Program-made: the position numbers and the translations under genes
Shown: positions 11,374-33,276 of the stretch, piece after piece
Layout of the letters: each line of letters opens with the position of its first letter
How positions within the stretch are numbered: position 1 is the stretch's first letter
Origin: Gracilibacteraceae bacterium
GTDB taxonomy: Bacteria > Bacillota > Desulfitobacteriia > Desulfitobacteriales > Syntrophobotulaceae
Assembly: GCA_031270805.1 (NCBI GenBank)
Contig: JAISWK010000183.1
Span: 1-36,599 of the forward strand
Reading direction: 5' to 3'
DNA: 36,599 nt
The notes under the pieces: model-generated
Databases searched by the model: none
Seen by the model: only the letters and a program-made list of their open reading frames with translations
Told to the model about the DNA's origin: nothing

Positions 11374-11995
11374 TGTCTAAAACCTCCCTGCTGTGCAATA
11401 TGATTTCTTCCAAAGCCTCCAGCGATTTGCAGCCGTATTTTTCTAACTCCAGGGCAATGGTCTGCATGGCGATGTTCTGCCCTCCGGCCCGGTAACGGTA
11501 CATAAAGTTGCGGTACAGTTGCAAGGTGCGCAAAGAATATGTGGCTAATTCGCCCCGCAGATAGGCGTCCAGCGAGGTGAGGCCAACAGTGCCGGCGTTC
11601 AGGCTGGGCGGGCGCCCGAGGGAAGCCGCCAGCGGATAGCGCCGGGCGAAATCGGCGTAGGCGTCCAGGTGGGCCCGGGTGATGTCCTCAATCAGCGCCT
11701 CTTTTTCCGGGCTGAGCGGCGGCAATCTATGGGCCAGAGCGGCAAATTCCTCCGGCGCGGTGTAACGCATCATGTAGGCATATTTCTCGCTCAGGAGGTT
11801 GCGCCGCTCTTTTTTGGCCTGCCGCAAGTCAGACAGATAGGAGTCGCGTGTCTCATCATCCCAGACCTCAAACTGGCTGCGCCGCATCCGGGCAAAAGTA
11901 TAAAAATCGTCCTGGCAATGAGCGCGCCCCCCGATATTTTGCACCCGCCCGAACATCTCCCACTCCAGGGCAATGATTCTGTCTATTGTATCCAT
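11339..11995 (-). CDS. DUF4125 family protein
   Basis: This 218-residue, mostly helical soluble protein has the features I associate with DUF4125: the opening IIALEWEMFGRVQNIGGRAHC, QDDFYTFARMRRSQF, WDDETRDSYLSDL and NLLSEKYAYMM. There are no membrane segments or classical catalytic motifs. The ATG follows GGGGGG. It sits 22 bp after the DUF4037 gene and its 3' end overlaps the AOR start by 35 bp, implying coupled translation. DUF4125 and DUF4037 genes tend to occur together in Clostridia, and their function is not established to my knowledge. Confidence 0.75.
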   Translation of the reverse strand: MDTIDRIIALEWEMFGRVQNIGGRAHCQDDFYTFARMRRSQFEVWDDETRDSYLSDLRQAKKERRNLLSEKYAYMMRYTAPEEFAALAHRLPPLSPEKEALIEDITRAHLDAYADFARRYPLAASLGRPPSLNAGTVGLTSLDAYLRGELATYSLRTLQLYRNFMYRYRAGGQNIAMQTIALELEKYGCKSLEALEEIILHSREVLDNGREEDLRAHR

Positions 11996-12017
11996 GATTC
12001 CCCCCGTTCCTTGTTGC

Positions 12018-12950
12018 TCACCACCGGGACATTACGGGCAGACCGCGCAATCCTTCGTGCCGGATCCGGGCCGACACCTCCGGGGCGTGATGGAGCAGGA
12101 AGTCGCCGGCAGAGTCGCTCAGGCCGGTTTCGCGCAGTGTCTGGCTGGTCTGGGCGCAGATCGCCTCAATGATCTCTTGCTTGCCGGCCCCGGAACCGGG
12201 CTGGAACAGCGCCCGCAATTGACTGTAAGTCCACGGCGCCAGGTCGCGCAGGCCCCGGTGCGCCCATTTGGCAAAAGGCATGTAGCGCCGGTGGAGCAAG
12301 TAGGTGATCGAACAGGCGGCCCGGCTGAACTCCGCCAGCGCCAACCCGGCGGCTACATCCTCGCCCCGGCGCCGGGCACGGGCATAATTGTACTGACCGG
12401 ACTGGCCCATCCGGGCGGCGCGGGAGGCGATTTTTTTGAGCCGGATATCCTCCGGGTAACAGGGAAGCAGCTGGGCGCGGATACTGCTGAATTCCCCGTA
12501 ATCGTCCACAAAAACTTCACCGTTGGTGGCTGTGGCCAAAAAACTCTCCGGCAGCCGTAACCACTCGCCCAAGGTGCGGGGCGCCCGGTTCAAGCCGATA
12601 AAACGCTGATAGTATTGGCTGGTAGGCAGCGCGGACAGGCGCTGGTCGCCCTGGGTCCTGATATTACGCTTGCGGTAACCCCTATACTCGCCCGGCAGTC
12701 TGTCGTAGGCCGCCCGCAAGGCGTCGCCGACGGCGGCTTCGTCCTCGTCGCTGAGCCAGAGGCAGAAGCCCGGGCCGAAGTCGTGGTCCCGTGACCATTG
12801 GTCGTCAAAACCGAAGCACTCGGAACCCTCGCCCGCCAAACCGCAGGCAATGCGGGCGGCATAGCGAGGAAATTGGAGGGCGATCATCGGGCGCCCATAT
12901 TCTTCATAATAGCCACGGGCCAATTCCATTCCGGTCATATGGCCGGGCAT
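12018..12950 (-). CDS. DUF4037 protein with nucleotidyltransferase-like motif
   Basis: This 310-residue protein has the DUF4037 hallmark: GLAGEGSECFGFDDQWSRDH directly followed by DFGPGFCLWL (about 38-67). The Gly-Ser...DD...D pattern is reminiscent of the polymerase-beta nucleotidyltransferase fold, and a helical C-terminal half follows. The start is uncertain: ATGs at 12950, 12938 and 12929 are all in frame, and GAAGGG directly abuts the first. It lies 23 bp after the sigma-54 activator and 22 bp before the DUF4125 gene. A TPR protein, a frequent companion of this pair as I recall, is encoded at 27105-28046. Its molecular role is unknown. Confidence 0.75.
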   Translation of the reverse strand: MPGHMTGMELARGYYEEYGRPMIALQFPRYAARIACGLAGEGSECFGFDDQWSRDHDFGPGFCLWLSDEDEAAVGDALRAAYDRLPGEYRGYRKRNIRTQGDQRLSALPTSQYYQRFIGLNRAPRTLGEWLRLPESFLATATNGEVFVDDYGEFSSIRAQLLPCYPEDIRLKKIASRAARMGQSGQYNYARARRRGEDVAAGLALAEFSRAACSITYLLHRRYMPFAKWAHRGLRDLAPWTYSQLRALFQPGSGAGKQEIIEAICAQTSQTLRETGLSDSAGDFLLHHAPEVSARIRHEGLRGLPVMSRW

Positions 12951-12973: not shown

Positions 12974-14359
<1,386 letters not shown>

Positions 14360-14580: not shown

Positions 14581-14659
14581 TTTTGCGCCCGGCGGCGCTC
14601 TGGCGGTGATGATGGAGCGGAGACCGCCCCGGCGTTCGCGAGAGATGTCGGGCGACATC
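14581..14659 (-). terminator. Hairpin-rich 3' region of the GRE operon
   Basis: Directly at the stop of the last acyl-CoA dehydrogenase gene is GATGTCG-gg-CGACATC (14644-14659). Further along are GGCGGT/ACCGCC (14602-14628) and a small GCGCC/GGCGC hairpin. None is followed by a U-tract on the minus strand. They may still block transcription or protect the 3' end, because an independent promoter for the next gene begins right after. Apart from these hairpins and the promoter, 14360-14657 holds no gene that I can support. Confidence 0.3.
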
Positions 14660-15758
14660 AGGCCACCGTTTTCTGAGCGATGTCGAGGATGACGGACTGC
14701 CCGCCGCCATGGAAAAGGCTGATGCCTTTCATGTCGGTAAGTAGCGGCGCGATGCCTAAGTCGAGGCTAAAGCCATAGCCGCCGTGAATCTGCATTGCAT
14801 CGAGGACGGTTTGCTCGCCGGTACTCTGAGCGAAGCCGCGGGCGACGCTGGCCGCGAGGCTGAAGTCCTCCCCGTCGTCTTTGAGCGCGGCCGCCTTATA
14901 GGCCAACAGGCGGGCCGCTTCACTGTTCATCTTCATCTTGCCCAGCATCACCTGGATGGCCTCGAACCGGCTGATCGGGCGGCCGAATTGTACGCGCTGG
15001 GCGCCGTAGGTCATACTCTTAACTAAGGCGGTTTCTTGCAGGGCGGCGGCAATCATCGCGATGGCGACGTCGTGGAGAGCCATGGCTTCCGCCGCGATCT
15101 GCCGGCCTTGACCGGGTTGGCCCAGCAACTGGGCAGCCGGGATGGCGACGTTATCCAGGGCCAGGTCACAGACCCGCAGGCCGCTCAGCCCCATCATGGC
15201 CTGGGCGCCGCCCCAGCTGAGGCCGTCGGCGTCGCCGTCGACGACAAAGGCGCTCAATTCGTTCTCGGCTGTGCGGGCCAAGACAATCAGGGCGCTGTCC
15301 CCGCCATAGCAGGGCACATAAGATTTGGCGCCGTTCAATATATAGCTCTCGCCCTCCAGGCGGGCGGTGGTCGTGATCAGGCCATAGTCCACGCCGGGTT
15401 TGCCCTCGGCGCAAGCAAAAGCCCCGATCTTAGCGCCGCTTAACAGGGCAGGCAGAAAAGCCCTCCTAGCCTGTTCGGCGCCATATTTTTCCACAACATT
15501 CAGGGCGAGGCAGACATGCCCGGCGTAGATAAAAGCGGTGACCGGCGAAACTTTGGCCAGCTCTTCGACACAAATCAGAAAACTGGTGCAATCGCAGGCC
15601 AGGCCGCCGTACTCCTCGCCGGCCATAATGCCGAGGGCGTCCATGTCAGCCAAATCCTTGACTACTTGATATTTGTCCTCTTGGGCCAGGGATTCGGCCG
15701 CAAATTCCCGGATACTCTGGCTGAGCAGAGCCTGTTCCTCAGTGAATTGGAAATCCAT
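14658..15758 (-). CDS. Acyl-CoA dehydrogenase homologue lacking the usual catalytic Glu
   Basis: This 366-residue protein has the full acyl-CoA dehydrogenase fold: MDFQFTEEQ start, a FAD/substrate region around FACAEGKPGVDYG, RVQFGRPISRFEAIQ, and MQIHGGYGFSLDLGIAPLLTDM. At the C-terminal position where most members have YEGT-x-Q with the catalytic Glu, this protein reads LFHGGGQ, so His350 stands where Glu is expected. It may use another base, catalyse a different reaction, or act as a partner of the next enzyme. Of two nearby ATGs, the second (15758) has GGGGG at correct spacing. It lies 15 bp after the second dehydrogenase gene and is the last gene of the GRE operon. Confidence 0.9.
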   Translation of the reverse strand: MDFQFTEEQALLSQSIREFAAESLAQEDKYQVVKDLADMDALGIMAGEEYGGLACDCTSFLICVEELAKVSPVTAFIYAGHVCLALNVVEKYGAEQARRAFLPALLSGAKIGAFACAEGKPGVDYGLITTTARLEGESYILNGAKSYVPCYGGDSALIVLARTAENELSAFVVDGDADGLSWGGAQAMMGLSGLRVCDLALDNVAIPAAQLLGQPGQGRQIAAEAMALHDVAIAMIAAALQETALVKSMTYGAQRVQFGRPISRFEAIQVMLGKMKMNSEAARLLAYKAAALKDDGEDFSLAASVARGFAQSTGEQTVLDAMQIHGGYGFSLDLGIAPLLTDMKGISLFHGGGQSVILDIAQKTVA

Positions 15759-15773
15759 ATACATCCCCCTTGT

Positions 15774-16916
15774 TCAAGTGCCTGCCAGCGTGGCCCCGCC
15801 GATGACAATCCGCTGAATCTGATTTGTGCCTTCATAAATCTGCATGACTTTGACGTCGCGCATTAATTTTTCCACCGGCGATTCCTTCATAAAGCCGTAG
15901 AGGCCAAAGATCTCCACCGCCAGGCAGGCCACTTGCGTCGCTGTGTCGGTACAGAAGAGCTTGGCCATAGCCGCCGCTTGGCTAAAAGGCTGGTGCGAAT
16001 CCTTGAGGAAGGCCGCCCAATAATACATATTCCGCGCCGCCGCCACTTGGGTCGCCATATCGGCGACTTTGAACTGGATGTCCTGCGAGCGGCTGAGCGG
16101 TTTGCCGTTCCTGGTTTCGGTGCGGGTGAATTGGACGACTTCTTCCAGCGCCCGTTGGGCCAGACCTACGGCCATGGCCGCCTGGTTGATCCGCCCGGAA
16201 TCGAGTCCGCCCATAGCCAGCTTGAAACCGATGCCTTCCCGGCCGATCAGCTGAGATTTGGGAACACGCAAGTCGTTCAGAATCAGCTCCACGGTGTTGG
16301 AGGCGCGGAGGCCCAGTTTGTTCTCGTGCTTGCCGATTTTGAGGCCGGGCGTACCGGCTTCGACATAGAAAGCCGAGAGGCCTTTGGTACCCAGGCTGGG
16401 GTCGGTGGAGGCGATGATGCAGAAAACACTGGCGTAGGCGCCCGTGGTGATAAAGCATTTGCTGCCGTTGAGGACATAGCAGTCCCCGGCGGCGACGGCG
16501 CGGGTGGCCACCGCCGCGGCGTCGGAACCGGCGCCGGGCTCAGTCAGGGCAAAGGCGCCCAGCTTGCCGTCAGTGAGAAATTGGAACCACGCTTTTTTCA
16601 GTTCGTCGGAACCGCCCAGCAGCACCGGGTAGGAAGAAAGCCCATTGCCGCCCAGGCAGGTGGCGACGCCGATACAGCCGCGGCCCAATTCTTCCGTGAT
16701 GAGGCCTATGGTCAGCGCGTCATAGCCGGGTCCGCCATACTCGGCGGGGACGCAGGTCTGGAGATAGCCTTGTTGGCGCGCTTCATCAATGATCGGGGTC
16801 GGAAACTCGCCCTTTTCGTCGAATTCTTTTACTTGGGGGATAACGCAGCTGTCGACGAAAGCCCGGGTTTTTTGCTGGATTGCTACTTGTTCCGGCGCTA
16901 AATTCAGGTTGAACAC
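15774..16916 (-). CDS. Acyl-CoA dehydrogenase
   Basis: This 380-residue flavoenzyme oxidises an acyl-CoA to the 2-enoyl-CoA and passes electrons to ETF. Family segments are FALTEPGAGSDAAAV (FAD binding), CFITTGAYA, GLRASNTVEL, FG-like helix residues around ETRNGKPLSRSQDIQFKVADM, and the canonical catalytic QIYEGTNQIQR with Glu362. The start is GTG with AAGGAAGG upstream, and it overlaps the end of the GlmL-like gene by 13 bp. The chain length and shape of its substrate are unknown. Given the mutase and CoA-transferase, a branched or carboxylated acyl-CoA is plausible. Its neighbour at 14658-15758 lacks the catalytic Glu. Confidence 0.93.
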   Translation of the reverse strand: MFNLNLAPEQVAIQQKTRAFVDSCVIPQVKEFDEKGEFPTPIIDEARQQGYLQTCVPAEYGGPGYDALTIGLITEELGRGCIGVATCLGGNGLSSYPVLLGGSDELKKAWFQFLTDGKLGAFALTEPGAGSDAAAVATRAVAAGDCYVLNGSKCFITTGAYASVFCIIASTDPSLGTKGLSAFYVEAGTPGLKIGKHENKLGLRASNTVELILNDLRVPKSQLIGREGIGFKLAMGGLDSGRINQAAMAVGLAQRALEEVVQFTRTETRNGKPLSRSQDIQFKVADMATQVAAARNMYYWAAFLKDSHQPFSQAAAMAKLFCTDTATQVACLAVEIFGLYGFMKESPVEKLMRDVKVMQIYEGTNQIQRIVIGGATLAGT

Positions 16917-18295
16917 GGCCAGCCTTCCTTTCGGAGTGTTTTCAGGTACTTTTTCGCGATGGTCAACGCCTTGGCCGGCTCGGACTGGGCGAGAAGCCCG
17001 ATCGCGAACAGGATATAGCGTTCGTCCAGCAGGACGGACGGACTGACCGGTTTCAGCACATTAGCGGCTGTCTCTTCGAAAATGGCCCCGGACAGCACCT
17101 GCAACGGGTCGGGGGAGAAAGCGACCGGCCCGCCGGCCCCAATGAGCAGCTGGATCCGGGTCAGGTCTTTGCCCCGTTGGACAAAATGTTCGCCCTGGAC
17201 GGTATAGACTTGTTCAATGCGACCCACATGGCGATCGACCGCCGTTTTCACCGCTAAACGCGACAGGTGCAGATGCCCGGGGACATCTTCGTCCGCCGGC
17301 AGCCCGTTGTTGGCCTGGAGACGCTGAACCAGATCGCCCGGCGGCGAGGCGCCGTCTCCCGTCGCGGCCAGTTCCGCCAGGGCGTCCAAGTTGTGGAACA
17401 GACCCAAGTCGCCTTCGACCGTGCGTTTGGCCCAGGGCTGGGGCAATCCCAGCATAGTGACGCCGGTTCGCGTGGGCAGACCTTTGGCGACGGAGTAGAC
17501 GTCTGTCGTAGCGCCGCCGACGTCGACCAGCAACAACTCGCCCAGACCCGCCCGGCCTTTGACGCCTTGGGCCAGGAGTTGGGCGGCGGCCATGACCGCC
17601 GCCGGCGTGGGCATGATCACGCCGGAGATGACGCTGCGCACCCGGGAGATGCCTTTGGCCTCAGTGATGCGGTGCAAAAAGAGGTCGCGGATCTGTGCGT
17701 TGACTTTATCCAGGTTGAGGATGCCGATCTCCGGCATCGCATTGTCGGTATAAACGACATTGATGGATGATGAGGCGAAGGCGTCCTCCAGATCGTCACG
17801 GGCGGACTTATTGCCGGCGACAATGATGTTTTTAACTACCTTACTCAAGGCCAGCATCCGCCCATTGGCGGTGATGACCCTGCGGTTGCCGCCGTCTGTG
17901 CCGCCGGTCAAGAGGACGATATCGGGCGCCAGCCTCTCTATCTCACTCATTTCCCGTCTGGTCAGCTCGTAAGAACAAGTCCCGACGATCCGGGCCCCGG
18001 CCCCCAAGGCCGCCATCCGGGCCGCCTCGGTAGTATACTCCGGCACGAGACCGACACAGACGACGCGCAAGCCGCCGGCCGCGCTGCTGCTGGCCACGGC
18101 TTGCCGCCGCATAGCGGCACTGACGGGCACAATCTCCGCCATCAAGCTGAGGGCTGCCTCCAGCCCCAGCATGATGTCGGTACCTACAGTGGAGGGCGCC
18201 TGCACCCGGCCCAGCAATTCTTCCCGCTCCAGATCGAAGGCCACGACCTTGGTATAGGTGCTGCCGAAGTCGATGAATAGTTTGCTTTGGCCCAT
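16904..18295 (-). CDS. GlmL/MutL-type reactivating chaperone of a B12-dependent mutase
   Basis: This 463-residue ASKHA-fold ATPase has DFGSTYTK (9-16), GGTDGGN (131-137) and DVGGATTDVYS (258-268), and a late Gly-rich GAGG. This is the signature of GlmL, encoded with glutamate mutase, which is thought to reactivate the mutase by exchanging damaged cobalamin. This is not the DNA mismatch-repair MutL. It lies downstream of the GlmE- and GlmS-like genes but is separated from them by the MmgE/PrpD and MFS genes. The ATG follows GGGGGCG. Its presence supports an active adenosylcobalamin enzyme rather than a remnant. Confidence 0.92.
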   Translation of the reverse strand: MGQSKLFIDFGSTYTKVVAFDLEREELLGRVQAPSTVGTDIMLGLEAALSLMAEIVPVSAAMRRQAVASSSAAGGLRVVCVGLVPEYTTEAARMAALGAGARIVGTCSYELTRREMSEIERLAPDIVLLTGGTDGGNRRVITANGRMLALSKVVKNIIVAGNKSARDDLEDAFASSSINVVYTDNAMPEIGILNLDKVNAQIRDLFLHRITEAKGISRVRSVISGVIMPTPAAVMAAAQLLAQGVKGRAGLGELLLVDVGGATTDVYSVAKGLPTRTGVTMLGLPQPWAKRTVEGDLGLFHNLDALAELAATGDGASPPGDLVQRLQANNGLPADEDVPGHLHLSRLAVKTAVDRHVGRIEQVYTVQGEHFVQRGKDLTRIQLLIGAGGPVAFSPDPLQVLSGAIFEETAANVLKPVSPSVLLDERYILFAIGLLAQSEPAKALTIAKKYLKTLRKEGWPCST

Positions 18296-18327: not shown

Positions 18328-19695
18328 TCAGGTCAACTTGTCCTTAGTCTCTGTGCCCAGGATGAAGATGGCGCAGGCGGCCACGATAGAGACCGCGACA
18401 ATCAGGATAAAAACATTGTTCACGTTCCCGGTGCCCATGATGTAACCCACAATGACCGGGCCGGAGATACCGCCGACCCGGCCGAAGACCGAGGCAAAGC
18501 CGGTACCGAGACCGCGGATCCGCGTCGGGAACAACTCAGACAAGTAGGTGGAGTAGGTCATATTGTAGCCAAATTGGAAAAAGGTGTAGATGAAGCCGCA
18601 GATGAGAACGGTGACGACTGCCCCTTGCATACCATAGACATAGGCCGCGGCGCCAACGCCCAAGGCCATCACGATGTTGGCGACCTTGCGCCCGAATTTA
18701 TTCAAGATCCACACCATGGCAAAGTATGCCGGGATGCCGCCGGTGGCAAAGATGGCGATCATACCGGTCGAACGCTGGACGGTGAAGCCTTTGCCCACCA
18801 GCAGAGTGGTCAGCCATGTGGTCAGGGAGAAATAGACCAGCATCTGACAGAAAGGCCAGATCATGCCGAGAAAGGTATGCTTGATCTGCTGCCGGCTCCA
18901 TAGCTCGCCGAAACCCGCCTTGGTCTGGGCTTCGAGCCTGCGGCGCTCGGCAATCTCCGCTTCAAACTTGACGACCTCTTCCTCGGTGAACTCATGAACC
19001 GGTTGGCCGCTGGACTTGGCGCAACGATCTTCGTAGGCGGTGACAATCTTGGCGGCCTCTTCCTGCCTGTTCTTGGATTCCAGCCAGCGGGCGGATTCAG
19101 GCAGAGCCTTGATAACAACGAACACCCAAAGGGCGAAGCAGGAAACAACGACAAAGAGTGTGCGCCAGGTAAAATAGCTGAGGATCAGGGTCGCGAGACC
19201 GGCGCCGCCGATCGTCGCAAAAGGCACCATCAGGAGGGAAAGCACGACGAAACTGGCCCGATTTTTGGACGGTCCCATCTCAGCCAACAAAGCCAAGCTG
19301 GCCGGCACCTGGGCGCCCGCGCCGATACCGAAGATGGCGCGGAAGACAAAGAGCATCTCTATGCTGGTCGAAGCGGCGAAAGCCAGGCCGGCCAGGCCCC
19401 AGGTAAACAGACAGATGATGAATACTTTTTTGCGGCCGATCCAATCGCACAAGCTGGCGGTGATGGCGGCGCCCAACAACATGCCCATGTTGTTGGCGGA
19501 ACTCAGCCAGCCCAGCAGTTCGGGGCTGATGGCGAACTCGGCCTGCACCAGGGGCATGCAATAGCCAAAGGCATTGACTTCGACGGCCTCGGCAAACATG
19601 GCGATGGAGACGACGATCGCGATCCAGCGCATGTAGCCGCACATGGGCAGATTCTCAATGCGCAGGGATATGGGCACCTTATTCCTGTCGACCAT
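18328..19695 (-). CDS. MFS transporter, metabolite (aromatic/organic acid):H+ symporter type
   Basis: This 455-residue protein has about 12 hydrophobic segments. MFS signatures are visible: DWIGRKKVF after the second segment, PESARWLE before a long central cytoplasmic loop (about 195-255), and ELFPTRIRGLGTGFASVFGR in the second half. This pattern matches the sugar/aromatic-acid:proton symporter group (AAHS/MHS-like). AAGGAGG precedes the ATG. It lies inside the GRE/mutase operon, 25 bp after the MmgE/PrpD gene, so it is probably the uptake system for the pathway substrate, plausibly a carboxylate. The substrate itself is not readable. Confidence 0.88.
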   Translation of the reverse strand: MVDRNKVPISLRIENLPMCGYMRWIAIVVSIAMFAEAVEVNAFGYCMPLVQAEFAISPELLGWLSSANNMGMLLGAAITASLCDWIGRKKVFIICLFTWGLAGLAFAASTSIEMLFVFRAIFGIGAGAQVPASLALLAEMGPSKNRASFVVLSLLMVPFATIGGAGLATLILSYFTWRTLFVVVSCFALWVFVVIKALPESARWLESKNRQEEAAKIVTAYEDRCAKSSGQPVHEFTEEEVVKFEAEIAERRRLEAQTKAGFGELWSRQQIKHTFLGMIWPFCQMLVYFSLTTWLTTLLVGKGFTVQRSTGMIAIFATGGIPAYFAMVWILNKFGRKVANIVMALGVGAAAYVYGMQGAVVTVLICGFIYTFFQFGYNMTYSTYLSELFPTRIRGLGTGFASVFGRVGGISGPVIVGYIMGTGNVNNVFILIVAVSIVAACAIFILGTETKDKLT

Positions 19696-19720: not shown

Positions 19721-21124
19721 CTAAAGTCTGCCCTCTCTCCGCAATGTCAGCGGGATGAGCGTCGTTACGTCCTGGCATTTGTCCAAGCTCTTGATCATCT
19801 CAATCAGTTTGGCCACATTTTCTTCCGGCAGGGGCTCGGGCAGGATAGAGAGACAACCGTGGAATTTTTCCTCCACATCGGCGAAATTCAACGGGTTGGT
19901 CGGGGTGCCCTTAGGCAGGTTGACCTGTTCGGTCAATTTGCTGCCGTCGCTGAAGGCGACTTCAACGCGGCCCGCCTCAATTTCCATGCCGGCAAAACTT
20001 TCATCGACCAGGGTCGGCTTGATTCTGGCGGCCAGGGCCAGCAGAGCCGGATCCTTGATGGCGGCCGGTGAGAAATCGTTGATGGTGGCGCCGCCGCGGA
20101 CAAAGACCGAGGTGACGCCCCAGGGGGCGCTGAACTGGCTGTCCACATAGTTGCGGGGCGCCGTCTTGAACTCGTGCGGGGCGCAAAGCAGATCCAAGGT
20201 GCCGGGGCCGCACCAAAGCTGGATCTGAGCGATGTCGTCCGGAGTGAAGGTCTTCTGGGACTTGATCTGCAAAGCGGCGTCGATGAAAGGATGAATTCCG
20301 CGGCAGCACGGGTAGGGCTTGATGGAGACGTTCTCTGTTTCAAAGAACTTGCCCAGGTCATTCACCAAGGTCTCGCGGGAGTATTTGTTATCGTGGTAGA
20401 CCTTGTAGAAGCCGGCGTCGCCCTCCAGGACGTTCCGGGCGCCGGTGAGGCCTTTTTGCGCCATCAGGGCTGATTCGATCCCGGCCTTGACCGCGAAACC
20501 CGGGCCGAGGCGCTTGGTCAGAGCGCCGTCTTTGACCGGCTGGGCGTTGCCGGAGGAGCGGTGGTAGGCGATGCCGATAGCGTTGAGGATGGTGTCCACG
20601 TCCAGCTTGAGGATGCGCCCAGCCACGGCCGCCGCAGTGATGGCGCCGTACAGCGTTGTCTGGTGCCAGCCGTAGGGGATGATGCTTTCGCCGGGGCGGG
20701 TCGCCAAACCAAGGCGACAGATCATGTCTGTGCCCAGGGCGATGGCGGTCATGAATTCCTCGCCGCTGATCCCGCGCACATACTCAGCCATGGTCAGGGC
20801 CGTTGGGATCGCCACCACGCCGGGGTGCATGATCGCCGCTTCGTGGACGTCGTCGAAGTCGAGGGTATGACACATGGTCACGTTGACCTGGGCGGCGTTG
20901 GGGGCCGGGACCTTGTCGCCGTAGTAGAGAGTCGTGCATTGCGGCGCGCCGCCCCACTCGCGGTTCAGGGCCACCAACTCCGGGACGCCGCGTTGGGTGG
21001 CGCCGCCCAGACCGACGCCAAAATAGTCGAGTACTTGCAATTTGGTGATTTCGGCCACTTTTTCAGATAAATCTGAAAACTTAGCGTCATGGAAGGTTTG
21101 TGCGTACAAATATATAGCGTCCAT
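19721..21124 (-). CDS. MmgE/PrpD family protein
   Basis: This 467-residue protein belongs to the family of 2-methylcitrate dehydratase (PrpD), cis-aconitate decarboxylase and iminodisuccinate epimerase. Family segments are LDFDDVHEAAIMHPG, GWHQTTLYGA, TKRLGPGFA and PCCRGIHPFIDAA. From memory, active-site residues of cis-aconitate decarboxylase (Asp93, His103, His159, Lys207, His277) line up with Asp91, His100, His154, Lys204 and His278 here, so it should be active on a polycarboxylic acid. Two ATGs six bases apart are possible; AGGAGG is correctly spaced for the second. It sits directly after the mutase subunits, implying that it acts on the mutase product or substrate. Dehydration, decarboxylation and epimerisation are all possible. 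Confidence 0.9.
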   Translation of the reverse strand: MDAIYLYAQTFHDAKFSDLSEKVAEITKLQVLDYFGVGLGGATQRGVPELVALNREWGGAPQCTTLYYGDKVPAPNAAQVNVTMCHTLDFDDVHEAAIMHPGVVAIPTALTMAEYVRGISGEEFMTAIALGTDMICRLGLATRPGESIIPYGWHQTTLYGAITAAAVAGRILKLDVDTILNAIGIAYHRSSGNAQPVKDGALTKRLGPGFAVKAGIESALMAQKGLTGARNVLEGDAGFYKVYHDNKYSRETLVNDLGKFFETENVSIKPYPCCRGIHPFIDAALQIKSQKTFTPDDIAQIQLWCGPGTLDLLCAPHEFKTAPRNYVDSQFSAPWGVTSVFVRGGATINDFSPAAIKDPALLALAARIKPTLVDESFAGMEIEAGRVEVAFSDGSKLTEQVNLPKGTPTNPLNFADVEEKFHGCLSILPEPLPEENVAKLIEMIKSLDKCQDVTTLIPLTLRREGRL

Positions 21125-21159
21125 AAGCATTACCTCCTGCTAATAAGCCATTGCGACAG

Positions 21160-21639
21160 TCACGGGGCAGCCATTTTGGCCTTGAAAGCAAGATCTTTTT
21201 TTAAGTCTTCGATCGCCAAGCGCACATCGGTCTCCGGCGGATACACCCGGTCGAAACCAATTTTTTTGAATTTTTCCTCATCTTCGCGCCAGTCATGCTT
21301 CATGACGCCAAGGATGCCGCCAATGTAGAGCAGGATGCCGCCCAGGCCCGCTTCCGTGAACTTAGCGCGGATGCCTTGCACGTCCATCTCGGCCATGCCG
21401 TAGAGGGAACTCATGAAGACGGCGTCAGCGGCAGTCTCCTGGGCCACTTTGACAAACTCCTCCACCGGGGTCTGGGCGCCCAAACCGACGGCGTTAAATC
21501 CTTCGTCCTGGAGGATGCGCGTGATGATTTTTGTGCCGATCACATGGGCGTCAACGCCCACGGTGCCGGTGATAACGGTTATTTTGTCTTTCTTGCTATA
21601 ATTTTCCACAGAATCGTCTCCTATTCCATCATAGAACAT
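21160..21639 (-). CDS. Cobalamin-binding mutase subunit (GlmS/MutS-like)
   Basis: This 159-residue B12-binding domain protein resembles the small subunit of glutamate mutase. It has the base-off/His-on motif DAHVIG (Asp30, His32, Gly35), the SSLYG segment (77-81) and LLYIGG (103-108) that cradle the nucleotide tail, and the characteristic ending around FDRVYPPETDVRLAIEDLKKDL. It forms the active mutase with the GlmE-like subunit encoded 44 bp upstream. The start is ambiguous: an upstream TTG is in frame at 21663, but the ATG at 21639 is the first ATG after AGGAGG (12 nt away). The protein is about 20 residues longer at the N-terminus than typical GlmS. Confidence 0.93.
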   Translation of the reverse strand: MFYDGIGDDSVENYSKKDKITVITGTVGVDAHVIGTKIITRILQDEGFNAVGLGAQTPVEEFVKVAQETAADAVFMSSLYGMAEMDVQGIRAKFTEAGLGGILLYIGGILGVMKHDWREDEEKFKKIGFDRVYPPETDVRLAIEDLKKDLAFKAKMAAP

Positions 21640-21683
21640 ATTCCTCAAACACCTCCTTCCCAACGGGCCCCAGGTGGCTGCGG

Positions 21684-23150
21684 TTATTGCGCGACTTTGC
21701 CGATCAGTTGACCTTTGCTGATGGCCCAGAAGTCTTCGAGGGAGACATAGTAATCCATCTTGCGTCCTTCCGCGGCGGCGCGGGCGGCGACTTTTTGGCG
21801 GTGAAAATCTTTCATTTCTTCCGGGTAGGGCAGGTTGCCGAAATCCAAATAACGCGTGGCGCCGTTTTTGTCCCGAATGCCCAGTACCTGGTCTTTGGCA
21901 TGGATATTGATGGAGAAGGGGCTGTCCAGCACTCCCGCTTTGAAGGCCAAAACCGTGCCGGCAATGAGATCGCCGTCGCCCATGTCCAGCACTTTGTCCA
22001 AAATGCAGGAGACTTCGCGGAAGGTGACTTCCTCTTCTTCCTTGATGGCCTCGTTGTCCACAATGAAGTTCTCTTGCTGCCTGACGACATTGAAAATCCA
22101 GTTGCTGCCCTTGTATGTCTGGACATGAGACTCGCGGCTGGGAACCCCCAGCGCTTCGTCAATGGTCTTGATGAAAGCGATCGGCGCCCTGGCCAGAGCG
22201 GCGGTAACCGCGGTGTAGAGGCTATAGCCAAAGGCCGAGCCCACATCCTGGGGATAAGGGTACAACGGCACTTGGCTGGCGACGATGCCGGGGATGATGA
22301 CGTCCCGGTAGCCCAGCTTGTCGAGGTATTTATGGTACAGGCGCGGCATGGCGCGCATGTCGCCGATGTCCTGAGCCATGCAGCCCTGCAGATTGACCTG
22401 GGGCATGACACATTTGGCCCCTTGGCAAATGACATTGACCGCCTCGATAATCTGGGTGGCAATATTGACGCTTTGGGGAATGACGCCGTTGGGCAGCCAA
22501 CCGTGGTTGTCCGCGGTGATGATGACTCCGTTGTCCGCATAGTAGCCCATCAGGCGGCCCATGTACTGGGCGGTTTCAATGAATTCCTCAATGGTACATT
22601 TTTTGTCGTAGCCGCCCAACCAGCCGAACAAGCTGCAGGGCATGGCATTCATGCCGGAGGCGAAAGCCATTTCGGCCACCTGGCTGTTGGCTTCGCGGGA
22701 GCAGCGCGGGTCCAGACAGGCATCGACAGACTCGACAAGTTTTCGGTTGTTTTGCAGGCCGTGGTTGACTATGGGGTAGCCATTCAGTTTTGGTTTGCCG
22801 CTCTCAATGCTTTCTCTCAGGCCTTGCTCCGATTTGTCGAAACGACCGTTGCGCGTATAGCTGTCAGTGGTGAGCGGCAGACAGGTGACCCCCAACTCGG
22901 TCAGGGTCTGCACCAGGGCGATTTCTTCTTCGAGGATCGGGGTGCCCTGGCGGGGCAGGACGGCCATGCGGCCTTCGTTGACCAGTTTTTGCAGTTGCTT
23001 GTAATAACGCTTGGTATCCGGCAGGCTCTTCTGGTAAGCGACCGCTTCTTCCAAGTCGATCTCTTGCAACGTAGGCCAGGCCGAGAGAACTTTTTGGCGT
23101 AAGCGCAGGAACAGTTCTTCATCAATCCGTTCTTGCTTGATGGTAGTCAC
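21684..23150 (-). CDS. Glutamate mutase-like large subunit (GlmE family), probable altered substrate
   Basis: This 488-residue TIM-barrel subunit of an adenosylcobalamin carbon-skeleton mutase aligns over its whole length with GlmE. With the GTG start at 23150, chosen because GGGAGG lies 8 nt upstream of it, the carboxylate-binding arginines fall at Arg67, Arg100 and Arg149. In Clostridium cochlearium GlmE they are 66, 100 and 149. Tyr181 and the Lys328/Glu332 pair (KTIDEALG) are kept. However, the place of Glu171, which contacts the substrate amino group, is Pro171, and Tyr177 is Trp177. A dicarboxylic substrate without the amino group is therefore likely. Residue equivalence is from memory of the family and a hand alignment. 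An alternative ATG at 23168 lacks a ribosome site. Confidence 0.9.
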   Translation of the reverse strand: MTTIKQERIDEELFLRLRQKVLSAWPTLQEIDLEEAVAYQKSLPDTKRYYKQLQKLVNEGRMAVLPRQGTPILEEEIALVQTLTELGVTCLPLTTDSYTRNGRFDKSEQGLRESIESGKPKLNGYPIVNHGLQNNRKLVESVDACLDPRCSREANSQVAEMAFASGMNAMPCSLFGWLGGYDKKCTIEEFIETAQYMGRLMGYYADNGVIITADNHGWLPNGVIPQSVNIATQIIEAVNVICQGAKCVMPQVNLQGCMAQDIGDMRAMPRLYHKYLDKLGYRDVIIPGIVASQVPLYPYPQDVGSAFGYSLYTAVTAALARAPIAFIKTIDEALGVPSRESHVQTYKGSNWIFNVVRQQENFIVDNEAIKEEEEVTFREVSCILDKVLDMGDGDLIAGTVLAFKAGVLDSPFSINIHAKDQVLGIRDKNGATRYLDFGNLPYPEEMKDFHRQKVAARAAAEGRKMDYYVSLEDFWAISKGQLIGKVAQ

Positions 23151-23167
23151 AAACTCAACCTCCCACA

Positions 23168-24085
23168 TTAATTCTTGATTTCACAAACCAGGCAATGTTT
23201 TTCGAAAATGGTCTTCAGATGCTCCATGTGCTCGGCGCTGGGCGGCGTGGCCGCCTCCATCGCGAAAGCGCGATCCAGGATCGTGTATTTTCCTTTGCCA
23301 AAGCGGTGGAACGGCAGCAAGTGGACATAAGAAACCGGCGTCCCCAAACTCTTTGCCCGCACGGCGATACTCTCCATTTCGGCGTCGGAGTCGTTGATAT
23401 CCGGCAGCACCGGCACTCTGATCACGATCTCGGCGCCGGAGCCGGCGGCCACCTCCAGGTTGTGCTGGATCAGTCTGTTGCCTGTGCCGACATACTGTTT
23501 GTGTTTTTCATCGTCCATCAGCTTAATGTCAAAATAGAGTATATCCGTTTCCGGCAAGACCTTGAGTAAGTTTTCCGTGGGGGCGAAACCCGAGGTGTCC
23601 AAACAGGTATTGAGACCGGCCTCGTGGCAGCGGGCAAAAAGGGCTAAGACAAAATCCGGCTGGCCCAACGGCTCGCCGCCGGAAACCGTGACGCCGCCGC
23701 CGGAATTGTTGTAATACAGTTTGTCTTTTTCGACGGTGGCAAAAACCTCATCCACAGTCATTTCCCGGCCCATCATCTGCATGGTGTTCGTGGGGCAGGG
23801 GTCGACGCATAGACCGCAGTCATTGCATTTGGCCCGATCAATCGTGACGCCCGTTTCCTCACTTACCGCGACGGCTTTTTCCGGACACACGGTCACACAA
23901 GTGCGGCACTTGATGCAGGATACGTCACGGTGGACGACTTCGGGGGCATATTTTTGTGATTCCGGATTGGCGCACCAAAGGCAAGTCAGCGGACAGCCCT
24001 TCAAAAAAACCGTACTCCGAATGCCCGGGCCGTCATCCAAGGTATAGCGTAACACGTTAAAAGTCATAGCGCTTTCGTTCGCCAC
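23168..24085 (-). CDS. Glycyl radical enzyme activating enzyme (radical SAM)
   Basis: This 305-residue radical SAM protein has the CxxxCxxC motif at Cys31, Cys35 and Cys38. An inserted dicluster ferredoxin domain follows with Cys57/60/63/67 and Cys87/90/93/97. SGGEP binds SAM, and the C-terminal half is the usual partial TIM barrel. It generates the glycyl radical on its partner GRE, encoded 104 bp upstream. The two extra [4Fe-4S] clusters are typical of activases of the PFL-like family other than PflA itself. The start is GTG with AAGGAG at 7 nt. Its last bases overlap an in-frame ATG of the GlmE-like gene, so the two are translationally close. Confidence 0.95.
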   Translation of the reverse strand: MANESAMTFNVLRYTLDDGPGIRSTVFLKGCPLTCLWCANPESQKYAPEVVHRDVSCIKCRTCVTVCPEKAVAVSEETGVTIDRAKCNDCGLCVDPCPTNTMQMMGREMTVDEVFATVEKDKLYYNNSGGGVTVSGGEPLGQPDFVLALFARCHEAGLNTCLDTSGFAPTENLLKVLPETDILYFDIKLMDDEKHKQYVGTGNRLIQHNLEVAAGSGAEIVIRVPVLPDINDSDAEMESIAVRAKSLGTPVSYVHLLPFHRFGKGKYTILDRAFAMEAATPPSAEHMEHLKTIFEKHCLVCEIKN

Positions 24086-24189: not shown

Positions 24190-26721
24190 TTAAACAGCGT
24201 CATGCATCGTGCGCAGGACGATCTCATCCTGAAGTTCCGGCGGCAGATCCACAAAGTAGGCGCTGTAGCCGCCGACGCGCACCAACAGATTCTTGTAATC
24301 GGCCGGACTCTTCTGGGCTTCTTTGAGTTCTTCGGCACTGTGGATGTTGAACTGGACATGCCAACCGCCGCGGTCGCAATAGGTTTTGACCAGGCTGGTG
24401 ACTTTCTTGACCTTTTCCGTGCTATTCAACATTTGTTTGGAGAACTTCATGTTGTGGGTGTAGCCGCATACTTCAAAAGCATAGTCACTGTAGCGGGTCG
24501 CAGAGTTGATCAGGGCGGTGGGCCCGTTGATATCCATGCTGGGCATGGCCGAGGAAGCGGCGTCGTTCAGGGCCTTGCCTGCCTGGCGCCCATTGGGCAG
24601 AGCGGCGACGGAGGCCCCCTGGGTCACATGGCCGGCAGCCGCGCCCTTGAAGAGCATCGGTTTTTCGCCTGTGAAAGGATCCGGGCGTTTCTGCATAACG
24701 CGCTGAGTCAGCTTCAGGGTTCTGGCGAACAGCTCGTCCGGCATATCCTCGTCATTGCCATACTTTGGCGCCGCCAGGCACATCTGCCGCAACGCTTCGT
24801 CGCTCGCCCAGTTGGTGTGGATGGCGTTCAACAGTTTGGCCATGGAGACTTTCTTGGTGTCGAAGACCAGGTGCTGGATAGCGGCCAAACTGTCGGCGAT
24901 GTCGGTGATGCCGCGATCGCCGATCCAGGAGGCGCGGCAGACAGGATAGCGGGCGCCGCCTTCCCGGGAGGTCGCGCCGGCGGGGATGCAGTCTTCATAC
25001 AACATGGCGGCGCGTAAGCCGCTCATCGGGCTGTGGTCGATCTCCACGCTCCACCAGATAAAATAATGTTTGCGGAGGACGTCGCAGAAACGATCCAACT
25101 GCAATTCGAAGGCGGCAAGGATCTCATCCACGGATTTGAAATTATTGGGATCCCCGGTTTTCAGGCCCAGTTGCTTGCCGGTTCTCTGGTCGAAACCGTT
25201 ATTCAAGGTCAATTCAAAGATTTTGGCATGGTTGAGGCTATAGAACCCGCCCTGATGCTCGGCGCAATCCAGATGGTAACCCAGGCAGCCGCTGGCATTC
25301 CAGTTACAGGCATCTGTGATCGGCACACCGCGATCCAGGTAACGGGCCGTACCCAGGGTATCGTTCAGGAAGGCCGGGTTGCCGCCGCCAAAGTCGATAT
25401 TGCACTCCAGGGCGTGTACCATGAACTCCTCATCAATATCGTCATGGTAGCGAATGTAGATGGCCGGTTCGCTCAACATGGTCTGCCGCATGGTCTCCAG
25501 CACCAGCCAGGATACTTCGTTGATCAGGTCGGCGCCAACCTCGTTGCGCCCGCCCAGGGTGCAGTCCGGCAGCAGGGTGCCGGGGGCGGCGCGGTGTTCG
25601 CGGGCGACAGTAACCAGGTTCTCGGTCTCCCGCAGTTTGAGCCAGAGGGCCCCCATCATCTCGGCCGCATCCTGCCGGGTGATCTTGCCGGATTTGATGT
25701 CTTCTATATAGTAAGGATAGAAAATCTGGTCGATGCGGCCTACGCCGACTTCCGGGCGCTCGGAACTCTCTTTCCAGGCGGCCAGGTGCAGGAAACGGAA
25801 GGACTGCACGACCTCCTGGAAGCTACGGGGCGGGTTAGCCGGGACGTTCCGGCAAATCTCGGCGATCGTCTCCAGTTCGGCCTTGCGCTTGGGATCCTTA
25901 CAGGCGGCAGCCTGACGGAGGGCCTCCTCGGCGTGGCGCTCCGCGTACTTAATGACCGCTTGGCAGGAGATGATGACGGACTTGAGCAGGCAATACTTGC
26001 GGTGGGCCTGAGAAGAAATGCCCTGAACTTTGTAGCCTTGTTCGTCCATCCGTTTCAATTCATCCTGGGCTAAGGCGATGATGTAATTGAGACCGTTCCA
26101 AATCGCGGGCTGGGTGGGCATGCAGTTGCCGCCGCCAAAGGCGCCCCAGTTCTGGAACAGACCGCGGTCGATGCGCTCGCGCACGGCGCGCCCCTCAAAG
26201 ACCATGCCGTGGTCGAACATCAGGTCAAAATGCTCTTCCCCCAGCTCATAGCGGATGGCGTCGTTAACATAATTATCCTGGGGCATGACCTGGGCCCAGT
26301 ATGTGGCGTCGGCTTTCAGGGCGGCGAGATCCTCATCGGTAATATGGGAGGCGGCCGTGTCGCTGCTCTTGCGATCGAAGCGGCCAGTCTCGCACATGCG
26401 GAGAATTTCGCGGGGCTTCATGGCGCACAGAGTGCCCTGCCCGCGGGTGAACTTGGTTAACTGGCCGACGACCAGCTCGTTCTCGCGGATGATAACGGGG
26501 CCTTCCAGGAGACGTTTCTCAAAAGCCTTGGCCCAACGGATATCAATCGGCACCCCCTCGGTCTCTTTCCAGGATGCTGTGAACAGCAGGGTGTCGTCTA
26601 CATAGACCTGGGGCGTGGCGTTTTCCCACTCGGCTTTGAGTTTTTTGACGCGATCCGTCATGACATTGCAGGCATTGATATCGGCCTTGGTGAAATCCTT
26701 GGGATACTTGTGTTTTGCCAT
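24190..26721 (-). CDS. Glycyl radical enzyme (PFL-like family), reaction unassigned
   Basis: This 843-residue glycyl radical enzyme has the C-terminal glycyl loop VRVGGYSAYFVDL with the radical-bearing Gly818. The thiyl cysteine is Cys479 in NASGCLGYHL. Dehydratases, decarboxylases and C-N/C-S lyases of this superfamily usually read GCVE, with a Glu two residues after Cys; here that Glu is replaced by Gly. This excludes a simple CutC, glycerol/propanediol dehydratase or HpdB assignment. It leaves open an X-succinate-synthase-like addition to fumarate or a new reaction. No small Fe-S subunit gene is adjacent. The start at 26721 has GGAGG; the upstream open frame runs through the promoter region. 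It is the first gene of the nine-gene sigma-54 operon. Confidence 0.93.
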   Translation of the reverse strand: MAKHKYPKDFTKADINACNVMTDRVKKLKAEWENATPQVYVDDTLLFTASWKETEGVPIDIRWAKAFEKRLLEGPVIIRENELVVGQLTKFTRGQGTLCAMKPREILRMCETGRFDRKSSDTAASHITDEDLAALKADATYWAQVMPQDNYVNDAIRYELGEEHFDLMFDHGMVFEGRAVRERIDRGLFQNWGAFGGGNCMPTQPAIWNGLNYIIALAQDELKRMDEQGYKVQGISSQAHRKYCLLKSVIISCQAVIKYAERHAEEALRQAAACKDPKRKAELETIAEICRNVPANPPRSFQEVVQSFRFLHLAAWKESSERPEVGVGRIDQIFYPYYIEDIKSGKITRQDAAEMMGALWLKLRETENLVTVAREHRAAPGTLLPDCTLGGRNEVGADLINEVSWLVLETMRQTMLSEPAIYIRYHDDIDEEFMVHALECNIDFGGGNPAFLNDTLGTARYLDRGVPITDACNWNASGCLGYHLDCAEHQGGFYSLNHAKIFELTLNNGFDQRTGKQLGLKTGDPNNFKSVDEILAAFELQLDRFCDVLRKHYFIWWSVEIDHSPMSGLRAAMLYEDCIPAGATSREGGARYPVCRASWIGDRGITDIADSLAAIQHLVFDTKKVSMAKLLNAIHTNWASDEALRQMCLAAPKYGNDEDMPDELFARTLKLTQRVMQKRPDPFTGEKPMLFKGAAAGHVTQGASVAALPNGRQAGKALNDAASSAMPSMDINGPTALINSATRYSDYAFEVCGYTHNMKFSKQMLNSTEKVKKVTSLVKTYCDRGGWHVQFNIHSAEELKEAQKSPADYKNLLVRVGGYSAYFVDLPPELQDEIVLRTMHDAV

Positions 26722-27032: not shown

Positions 27033-27104
27033 TAGAGAGACAATTTGTATCTTTTAGAAAATAAAAATGTTTATGTCAATGTTTGGGAAAGGTGGTGGTC
27101 AGCT

Positions 27105-28046
27105 ATGAGCGAAGCCTTCTACGCCGAAATGGATGCGGTATACGCCGCCGCCGGCAAAGAAGGAGCGGAGCAGTTCCTCCAAGAGCGGAGGGCTCAGGCG
27201 CTGGCCGCGGGCGGTCAGACGCATCCGGACTACATTTTGGTCGTGTCGGAGTTGGGTAATTTATATCGGGGCCTCAGCCGCTATGCGGAGGCCCTGACCG
27301 CTTACAACGAGGCGGCGACGGTAATAGCCGCCGTGTTTGGCGAAAATTCGCCCAACTACGCTTCCAATTTAGTAAATACTGCCGGGGCCTACCGGATGAT
27401 GGGCGACAGCGACGCCGCTTGGCGGATTTTCAACCGGGCCATCGCCATTTATGAAAGTTTGGCGGAGGTTGATCTGTACCTCTATGCCGGCGCTCTGCAC
27501 AATATGGCCTCCCTCTGCCAGAGCCGGTCGGATTTTGCCGCAGCCATATCCTGGTCTCTGCGGGCGGTGGCCTTGCTGGAAGAGCGGTCGGACCTGGCAG
27601 GGGAATTAGCCGTCGCCTGTTCCAATCTCTCCGCTCTTTACCAGTCGAACGGGCAGCCCGGCGAAGCGGCCGTCTTTTTGGATCGGGCCCTGTCGATCTG
27701 GCAGGAGAGCGGCGGCGGCGGCAAAGACCCCCACTACGCGGCCGCCCTTAACAACAAAGCTCTGCGTTTAGCGGCACAGCAGGAGCTGGACGGAGCGCGC
27801 GCGCTGTTGGAAGAGGCCAGAACCATCGTCCGCCGCTACTTCGGCGCCAATGCGGACTATGCCTCCCTCAGTCGCAACCTGGCCCATATCTGCCGCCGCT
27901 CCGGCGACACGGCGTCCGCCCTGGTCTGTCTCCGCGAGGCGGAAGACGCCTTCACTCAGGTTTTCGGGCCGGAACATCCGCAGGTGAGCGCCATCCGCAG
28001 CGAGTTGGCCGCCTGGGAGCAGGCAAGGGGGTGGGCGGATGCCTGA
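27105..28046 (+). CDS. Tetratricopeptide repeat protein
   Basis: This 313-residue soluble protein is built from about six TPR units of the kinesin-light-chain-like type. Examples are ILVVSELGNLYRGLSRYAEA, NLVNTAGAYRMMGDSDAAWR, ALHNMASLCQSRSDFAAAI, ACSNLSALYQSNGQPGEAA, and LSRNLAHICRRSGDTASAL with FGPEHPQV near the end. It should be a protein-interaction scaffold. The open frame starts earlier (27045), but the ATG at 27105 has an AAAGGTGG-like site and a sensible N-terminus. It overlaps the next gene by 8 bp. TPR proteins often accompany DUF4037/DUF4125 genes, which here sit at 11339-12950, so a shared function is possible. Confidence 0.82.
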   Translation: MSEAFYAEMDAVYAAAGKEGAEQFLQERRAQALAAGGQTHPDYILVVSELGNLYRGLSRYAEALTAYNEAATVIAAVFGENSPNYASNLVNTAGAYRMMGDSDAAWRIFNRAIAIYESLAEVDLYLYAGALHNMASLCQSRSDFAAAISWSLRAVALLEERSDLAGELAVACSNLSALYQSNGQPGEAAVFLDRALSIWQESGGGGKDPHYAAALNNKALRLAAQQELDGARALLEEARTIVRRYFGANADYASLSRNLAHICRRSGDTASALVCLREAEDAFTQVFGPEHPQVSAIRSELAAWEQARGWADA

Positions 28047-32067: not shown

Positions 32068-33276
32068 ATGTCCTACGAAGTCAAACTCACCCCCAGCATC
32101 TTCAGCAGCCCGAACTCCCTTTTATTCGGCTGCGGCGTCGCCAAGCAGATCGGCAAGCACCTGAAACGTCTCGGTTGCACCAAGGTACTCCTGGTCTACG
32201 ACAAGGGCATTGAGGCCACCGGCATGGCCAAATCGGTGGCGGAGTGGATCGAGCAGGAAGGCCTTGGCGTCGTCCATTTCAACGAAGTTGAGGCCGATCC
32301 CCCGGTCTGGCAGGCCGAAAAAGCCGGCCTCGTCGGGCGGGAGGCGGGCGTGGACGGCGTCGTCGGCCTCGGCGGCGGCAGCTCCATCGACAGCGGCAAA
32401 GCGGCCAAGTTTTTGCAGCGCAACGACCCGCCGCTGAAGGACTATCTGGGTCGCGGGAACAAGAAAAAACAAAACCTGAGCGTCCCCCTGGTGGTCATCC
32501 CCACCACGGCCGGAACCGGCAGCGAGTGTACACCCGGCGGCACCCTGACTGACACCGACCTCGGCATCAAGACTAATATCAACGGGCCGGCGGCCTTTGT
32601 TGATCTCGCCCTGCTCGACCCGGAAATGACCGTCGGTCTGCCGGCCGCCATTACTGCCGCCACCGGCATGGACGCTCTCTGTCACAGTGCCGAGTCCTAT
32701 CTCTCCACCCTGGCCAACCCTTTCTGTGAGACCACCGGGCGCGAAGGCATTCGCCTCGTTGCTCAGCACCTGAAAAAAGCCTGCGATGAACCCGGCAACA
32801 TGGAGGCGCGCACCGGCATGATGCTGGCCGCCACTCTCGGCGGGATGAGCATGTTAGGCCCCCTGTGCTGTACGCCGCATGACGTGGGCCGTTCCCTCGG
32901 CGCCAAGTTCCATATGCCCCACGGCAACGCCTGCGCGGCCACCCTGCCCCAGTTCTTCCAGCTGGCCGCCCCGTACGAACCGGAAAAAGTCCGCTACATC
33001 GCCAACTGTTTCGGCGCCGGTCTCGGCGCGGACGCCTCCGCGGAAGCTATCGGTCAAGCCGCCTACGACCTGACCCGCAACCTGATGAAGAGCATCCCGC
33101 TGAAGCGGATGCAGGACTACGGCATCAGCCGCAATGACCTGCTGGCCCAAGTGCCGGACGAAGTGGTCATGCAGACCGCCGGCTTCGTCCAGGTGTTCGG
33201 CCAGGCCGCTTCCCCGATGCCCGTGACCAAGGAGTTTGTCAGCGAACTGGTCTCCCGCGCCTACGATGAAAACTGA
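32068..33276 (+). CDS. Iron-containing alcohol dehydrogenase (group III)
   Basis: This 402-residue enzyme has the NAD-binding GLGGGSSIDSGKAAKF (100-115) and IPTTAGTGSE. The metal ligands are Asp202, His206 (GMDALCH), His271 (CTPH) and His285 (MPHG). At the place of the His four residues after the third ligand (His267 in FucO), this protein has Arg275. That residue lies near substrate and nicotinamide in FucO, so an acidic substrate such as a hydroxy- or semialdehyde-acid is conceivable. AAAGGAGG precedes the ATG after a 109-bp gap from the transporter genes. It ends before a strong hairpin. It may interconvert an alcohol or hydroxyacid with the matching carbonyl compound in the same pathway. 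Confidence 0.92.
   Translation: MSYEVKLTPSIFSSPNSLLFGCGVAKQIGKHLKRLGCTKVLLVYDKGIEATGMAKSVAEWIEQEGLGVVHFNEVEADPPVWQAEKAGLVGREAGVDGVVGLGGGSSIDSGKAAKFLQRNDPPLKDYLGRGNKKKQNLSVPLVVIPTTAGTGSECTPGGTLTDTDLGIKTNINGPAAFVDLALLDPEMTVGLPAAITAATGMDALCHSAESYLSTLANPFCETTGREGIRLVAQHLKKACDEPGNMEARTGMMLAATLGGMSMLGPLCCTPHDVGRSLGAKFHMPHGNACAATLPQFFQLAAPYEPEKVRYIANCFGAGLGADASAEAIGQAAYDLTRNLMKSIPLKRMQDYGISRNDLLAQVPDEVVMQTAGFVQVFGQAASPMPVTKEFVSELVSRAYDEN

Follow-up and report, generated by a model that had tools for sequence, protein, structure and literature searches.

A divergent glutamate mutase-like protein with a Pro/Trp active-site signature is co-inherited with a glycyl radical enzyme of a distinct subfamily

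Introduction

2-Methyleneglutarate mutase of Eubacterium barkeri (EC 5.4.99.4) is an adenosylcobalamin (AdoCbl)-dependent carbon-skeleton mutase that acts on a C5 diacid free of amino groups, and its one polypeptide ends in a B12 domain. We know of no glycyl radical enzyme (GRE) in the nicotinate pathway of E. barkeri. In glutamate mutase (GlmES, EC 5.4.99.1; C. cochlearium structures 1CB7 and 6H9E), the two substrate carboxylates are bound by R66/R149 and by R100, respectively; the glycyl half of the substrate is held by R66/R149 together with E171, which makes a partial hydrogen bond to the amine, and the acrylate half by R100 and Y177 (2022 structural study, PMC9545868). Among GREs, the X-succinate synthases BSS and MASS carry a fumarate-binding Arg at position Cys+15 (PMC12358834).

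A literature search for gene clusters combining a GRE with a glutamate mutase found nothing relevant in open-access papers; a 2025 paper on a limonene GRE was set aside as a precedent, its subject being X-succinate synthases. Here, such a cluster is described from a 36,599-nt stretch (positions 1 to 36,599 of contig JAISWK010000183.1, GCA_031270805.1) of a Gracilibacteraceae bacterium, the whole of which is referred to as the window (Table 1).

Table 1. Features of the GRE-mutase region in the window.
Feature	Position	Strand	Basis
Aldehyde:ferredoxin oxidoreductase (AOR) family protein	9418..11373	minus	PF02730 + PF01314
DUF4125 + DUF4037 proteins	11339..12950	minus	PF13526, PF13228
PrdR-like sigma-54-dependent regulator	12974..14359	minus	PF00158; PrdR-type best NCBIfam match, under cut-off
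Acyl-CoA dehydrogenase family protein 2	14658..15764	minus	PF02771/02770/00441
Acyl-CoA dehydrogenase family protein 1	15774..16916	minus	PF02771/02770/00441
GlmL (MutL), methylaspartate mutase accessory protein	16904..18295	minus	NF040745 518 bits vs 475 cut-off (above)
MFS transporter, aromatic acid:H+ symporter-like	18328..19695	minus	TIGR00895 213 bits, under 418.55 cut-off
MmgE/PrpD family protein (2-methylcitrate dehydratase / cis-aconitate decarboxylase superfamily)	19721..21130	minus	PF03972 + PF19305
GlmS2, B12-binding subunit	21160..21663	minus	NF002612 180 bits, TIGR01501 147 bits, both above cut-off
GlmE2, divergent glutamate mutase E subunit with P171/W177	21684..23150	minus	PF06368, 1CB7 alignment, fold
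Radical-SAM GRE-activating enzyme	23168..24085	minus	TIGR02494 343 bits, above cut-off
GRE, distinct subfamily	24190..26721	minus	PF02901 + PF01228; subfamily alignment
Iron-containing alcohol dehydrogenase	32068..33276	plus	orthologues in relatives
Family III CoA-transferase (CaiB/BaiF), candidate product activator	33363..34604	minus	PF02515

A glutamate mutase-like protein encoded next to a GRE

The genes of the cluster follow one another in the order GRE, activase, GlmE2, GlmS2, MmgE/PrpD, MFS transporter, GlmL and the two acyl-CoA dehydrogenases. On the minus strand, the glmE2 frame can be read either from an ATG (23168-21684), which overlaps the stop codon of the activase gene preceding it, or from a GTG (23150-21684) preceded by GGGAGG. 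The GTG agrees with the homologues, whose starts fall near IKVRQ.RID, and it reproduces the residue numbering of the original prediction (the number in the ATG-initiated frame minus 6). In profile searches, GlmE2 matches PF06368 with 503 bits and scores 375.8 bits against TIGR01503, below the 390.1 cut-off of this glutamate mutase equivalog. It is 35% identical to the C. cochlearium enzyme (1CB7/6H9E), and its AlphaFold model (pLDDT 90.6) has glutamate mutase 6H9E as its best PDB match (TM 0.94, 2.0 Å). GlmE2 is the only PF06368 protein encoded in the host genome, whose assembly is 84% complete. Its partner GlmS2, whose start is probably an internal ATG, has the motifs DAHVIG (DxHxxG), S.L and GG, i.e., an intact B12 motif, and the window thus contains both the DxHxxG B12 subunit and the GlmL expected of a glutamate mutase.

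The active site of GlmE2

Alignment with C. cochlearium GlmE (1CB7), free of gaps across residues 149-181, pairs the residues of the window protein with those of the structure as follows: R67 with R66, R100 with R100, R149 with R149, P171 with E171, W177 with Y177, Y181 with Y181, K328 with K326 and E332 with E330. The arginine claw (R66/R100/R149), Tyr181 and the Lys328/Glu332 pair are hence placed as originally predicted, and so is the replacement of Glu171 by Pro and of Tyr177 by Trp; Asn123 (1CB7 numbering) is retained as well. A glutamate hidden at position 171 by a small register shift was ruled out in this sequence alignment, since it is gap-free and has no acidic residue within 3 positions. 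Further substitutions, absent from the earlier list, are H150C/S, G173S, E214D, F216H, a change at H291, M294L and G295Y/F.

Comparison with homologues shows how unusual these changes are. At 17 active-site positions, canonical GlmE proteins from Firmicutes, Campylobacterota and gammaproteobacterial genomes all read RGRNRHEGYYEFHMGKE, even though those of the latter two groups are only 26-28% identical to the window protein. The clade to which GlmE2 belongs, hereafter the P/W clade, reads instead RGRNR, then C/S/T, then PSW, with P171 and W177 together in every full-length member (44/44, versus 0/67 canonical sequences, all of which have Glu171 and Tyr177). R66/R100/R149, G68, N123 and E330 are conserved throughout, and K326 almost always; the adenosine contacts G68 and N123 are thus unaltered in the clade, as is the claw. 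When columns at least 97% conserved in the 67 canonical sequences, divergent Campylobacterota among them, were taken as canonical-invariant, 54 of the 100 such columns were kept in the 44-member clade, 27 had switched to a different residue that is itself conserved, and the other 19 had changed in some other way. The switched columns include 171, 173, 175, 177, 180, 214, 216, 218, 291, 293, 294 and 340; the residues newly conserved in the clade comprise P, W, S, F, H, Q and L. Random drift at 171 and 177 was ruled out by the contrast between 67 invariant canonical homologues and a clade that is P/W without exception. Set against the contacts described for glutamate mutase (PMC9545868), the switched columns affect both halves of the pocket and leave the carboxylate anchors intact. 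As judged from the aligned sequences, the substrate pocket of the P/W clade has been remodelled in a coordinated manner.

Distribution of the P/W clade and its sister lineages

A whole-collection scan returned about 50 loci of the clade, in Bacillota, Actinomycetota, a Bacteroidota MAG, Spirochaetes, a deltaproteobacterial/Myxococcota MAG, Acidobacteria, Chloroflexi and Burkholderiales. In a maximum-likelihood tree, a branch supported at 100/100 separates the P/W group from the other sequences; the question raised by the original prediction, whether the Pro/Trp pair marks a GRE-linked clade, can therefore be answered positively, the group being both monophyletic and co-inherited with the GRE (see below). 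GlmE and GlmS are fused into a single chain in at least 30 clade members and are split in the window.

Just outside the P/W group lie Dehalococcoidia with G171/E177 and Burkholderiales with S171/S177, the canonical enzymes being farther away. Since these sister lineages have no GRE (L091:10001-11437, L093:10001-11431, L118:10001-11476 and L095:261-1712), the loss of E171 preceded both the fixation of P/W and the link to the GRE. They are probably further substrate variants. The clusters of L091, L093 and L118 contain 2-3 family III CoA-transferases and another CoA-transferase-like gene. GlmE-like proteins of Gordonibacter (L105:10001-11434 and L106:10001-11434; 31% identity) have partly lost the claw (Q66, N149), and their genes adjoin those for GlmS, GlmL and an MmgE/PrpD relative.

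Co-inheritance with a distinct GRE subfamily

GlmE2 and the GRE are paired across genomes. Across 301 genomes from the family to which the Oscillospiraceae MAG G457 belongs, both were found in 21, GlmE2 alone in none, the GRE alone in 1 and neither in 279 (p = 2e-31), while none of the 14 genomes with a canonical glutamate mutase in this sample has a GRE of the SGCLGYHL type. A phylum-wide sample of 399 genomes gave 3, 0, 1 and 395, respectively (p = 4e-7). Both p-values assume independent genomes, an assumption that does not hold for relatives; the occurrence of the clade in several phyla nonetheless supports the link. A GRE orthologue (at least 59% identity) is present in 20 of the 21 P/W genomes checked versus 0/5 non-P/W genomes. 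The order GRE-activase-GlmE-GlmS is kept between distant genomes, and in some P/W genomes the GRE does not adjoin GlmE2 and is encoded elsewhere. The only genome of the phylum sample with the GRE and without any GlmE (L172, G395:C41:175-2673) has the GRE gene at a contig edge.

The GRE frame of the window is open to 26838, with a probable start at the ATG of MAKHK. The protein has the hallmarks of the superfamily, namely a PFL-like domain with its catalytic Cys, a Gly-radical domain and an activase (PF02901, PF01228, TIGR02494; fold), with SGCLGYHL at the catalytic Cys and RVGGYSAYF at the radical Gly. A profile search against the NCBIfam equivalogs gave none at cut-off, and a closer named GRE sought in a plasmid collection gave at most 32% identity among the matches listed. 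By fold it is closest to glycerol and propanediol dehydratases and by sequence to diol and hydroxyproline dehydratases, with benzylsuccinate/alkylsuccinate synthases (BSS, MASS) ranking lower in both respects. With the dehydratases and lyases (glycerol, 1R8W; propanediol, 5I2G; hydroxyproline, 6VXC; CutC), it shares the fold (TM 0.8-0.9), the catalytic Cys, the C-terminal radical Gly and a radical-SAM activase. However, SGCLGYHL replaces their GCVEP, so that the catalytic Glu of the GCxE motif of diol dehydratases is missing, and a conserved ES(S/P)xR(P/A)EV segment takes the place of the His281-Ser282 region of glycerol dehydratase. X-succinate synthases (BSS, 4PKC; MASS, 9O8U) share the GRE fold, but their Cys+15 Arg is a Tyr or His in the subfamily and no small beta/gamma subunit genes were seen beside the GRE; an X-succinate synthase is not supported by the features tested.

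Three GRE orthologues contain a single in-frame TAG/TAA in an otherwise intact frame (G456:C18:3316-5850, G463:C109:32-2566 and G628:C96:1821-4394), and may be pseudogenes, assembly errors or cases of recoding. Another locus (L068:14586-17075) has a second, ordinary GRE with a GCVEPQ motif and its own activase near the GlmE2 cluster.

Other genes of the locus and its relatives

Several of the other genes recur in related clusters. The MmgE/PrpD gene adjoins glmES in many relatives, AORs recur, and orthologues of the iron-containing alcohol dehydrogenase (50-57%) are encoded immediately upstream of the GRE in many others (L063, L064, L067, L070, L078, L164-L168). DUF4125, DUF4037 and a TPR protein (window 27045-28046) are found again beside this type of GRE or the AOR in unrelated genomes (L155, L164, L092). 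Homologues of the PrdR-like regulator are present on GRE or glmES contigs (L155, L156, L082, L089), and this regulator probably controls the GRE-glmES locus. In L054 (6185-10669), L050, L055 and L060, HyuA, HyuB and small-subunit genes of the acetophenone-carboxylase/caprolactamase family are located 3' of the mutase.

An attempt to read the substrate from the neighbours gave no single answer: acetophenone-carboxylase/caprolactamase-like, AOR/ALDH, SDR, VprA-like and BaiCD-like genes differ from one lineage to the next, and no single pathway can therefore be deduced from them. The iron or zinc alcohol dehydrogenases, SDRs, AORs and ALDHs suggest an oxidation from alcohol to aldehyde to acid, and the MmgE/PrpD, BaiCD-like and VprA-like reductase genes suggest free unsaturated acids or enones, with CoA transfer taking place late.

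A likely function for GlmES2

The claw, the B12 motif and GlmL indicate that GlmES2 almost certainly carries out AdoCbl radical chemistry on a dicarboxylate. The mechanism would be that of glutamate mutase, an adenosyl radical abstracting a hydrogen and a two-carbon carboxylate fragment undergoing 1,2-migration, whereby linear (glutarate-type) and branched (methylsuccinate-type) skeletons would be interconverted. The simplest reading of E171P, with no replacement acid, would be a dicarboxylate substrate without the 2-amino group; the amine could nevertheless be retained, as a backbone carbonyl, a water molecule or another residue could bind it. Nor is the claw by itself selective for one diacid, given that canonical glutamate mutase binds tartrate. 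Our favoured reading, which we hold to be probable, is that GlmES2 is an AdoCbl carbon-skeleton mutase of an amino-free dicarboxylate that shares a pathway with the GRE. Alcohol/aldehyde oxidoreductases would also take part in this anaerobic catabolic pathway, joined, depending on the lineage, by CoA-transferases, an MmgE/PrpD enzyme and reductases of the enoate or enone type. The direction of the reaction, the identity of the diacid and the order of GRE and mutase are ones that we infer.

Several other readings were weighed against this one. With glutamate mutase, GlmES2 shares the fold, the claw, G68/N123, K326/E330, the DxHxxG B12 subunit and GlmL, and it differs by E171P, Y177W, F216H, the changes at H291, M294L and G295 and some 20 more canonical-invariant positions, as well as by the GRE linkage of its clade, the frequent fusion to GlmS and, for the window protein, the TIGR01503 score. 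Lacking E171/Y177 and falling under this cut-off, GlmE2 departs from glutamate mutase in two diagnostic features. A glutamate mutase altered in its details, the GRE pathway making or using glutamate or 3-methylaspartate, would agree with the small shortfall against TIGR01503 and with the conservation of claw, adenosine site and GlmL; yet E171, Y177, F216, H291 and M294, invariant even at 26-28% identity, have switched in every or almost every clade member, and we judge this very unlikely. A substrate that still bears nitrogen, be it in an amine that is substituted or displaced or in a larger amino acid, with pocket changes that fit the substituent, is less readily dismissed: the 27 switched columns cluster at about 145-180, 214-226, 291-294 and 322-340, which goes beyond the removal of one contact. 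No new conserved acidic residue stands in for E171, however, and such a substrate seems unlikely.

GlmES2 could also have the known activity of 2-methyleneglutarate mutase, forming 3-methylitaconate as in nicotinate fermentation, from a substrate made by the GRE and an alcohol dehydrogenase. 2-Methyleneglutarate is a diacid that lacks the amine and bears a hydrophobic group in its place, which fits P171/W177, and alcohol dehydrogenases adjoining the GRE would suit a hydroxymethyl/formyl pair. The fused clade members resemble the E. barkeri enzyme in their single-chain layout, to judge from its general description, but GlmE2 of the window is split and E. barkeri, as far as we know, uses no GRE here; we regard this identity as unlikely too. 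The precedent does show that the "new substrate class" of the original prediction was worded more strongly than the evidence permits, since an amino-free C5 diacid skeleton is already rearranged by this mutase. Finally, the GRE might add fumarate as an X-succinate synthase, with GlmES2 rearranging the branched succinate directly, without CoA, in a pathway of the hydrocarbon type. By analogy, the gene content of the operon matches a route in which a succinate adduct is rearranged in its skeleton, loses a carboxylate, receives CoA and meets acyl-CoA dehydrogenases, and the alkane pathway also has a subsequent skeleton rearrangement. The Tyr or His at the position of the BSS/MASS Arg (PMC12358834), the fact that no small subunit genes were seen beside the GRE and its closer kinship to diol and hydroxyproline dehydratases all speak against such a route, which appears highly improbable.

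The favoured mutase can be described fairly as a PF06368 AdoCbl carbon-skeleton mutase variant in an undescribed pathway with two radical enzymes. In a broader and decidedly speculative form, the GRE and GlmES2 would lie at the heart of a so far undescribed anaerobic pathway of gut, digester and sediment bacteria from several phyla that handles a plant-derived, perhaps lignin-phenolic, acid, the mutase working on a diacid not used by any characterised mutase. Only one cultured carrier of the P/W clade was found in the whole-collection scan, Sporobacter termitidis DSM 10068, which has the fused form of GlmES2 and grows exclusively on methoxylated aromatics via O-demethylation and ring cleavage (PMC4585845; PMC8359953), and a LigM/DesA-like demethylase is encoded near the mutase or the GRE on actinobacterial contigs; a phenolic-acid pathway is therefore a lead rather than a result.

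Because PF06368 matches GlmE2-type proteins unreservedly, caution is warranted in annotating them as "methylaspartate mutase". Few classes of AdoCbl carbon-skeleton mutases are known, and the P/W clade couples a changed active site with a nearly obligate GRE partner, itself from a subfamily under the cut-off of every characterised family. The two genes hence annotate each other, and S. termitidis DSM 10068 provides a cultured host in which to search for the substrate.
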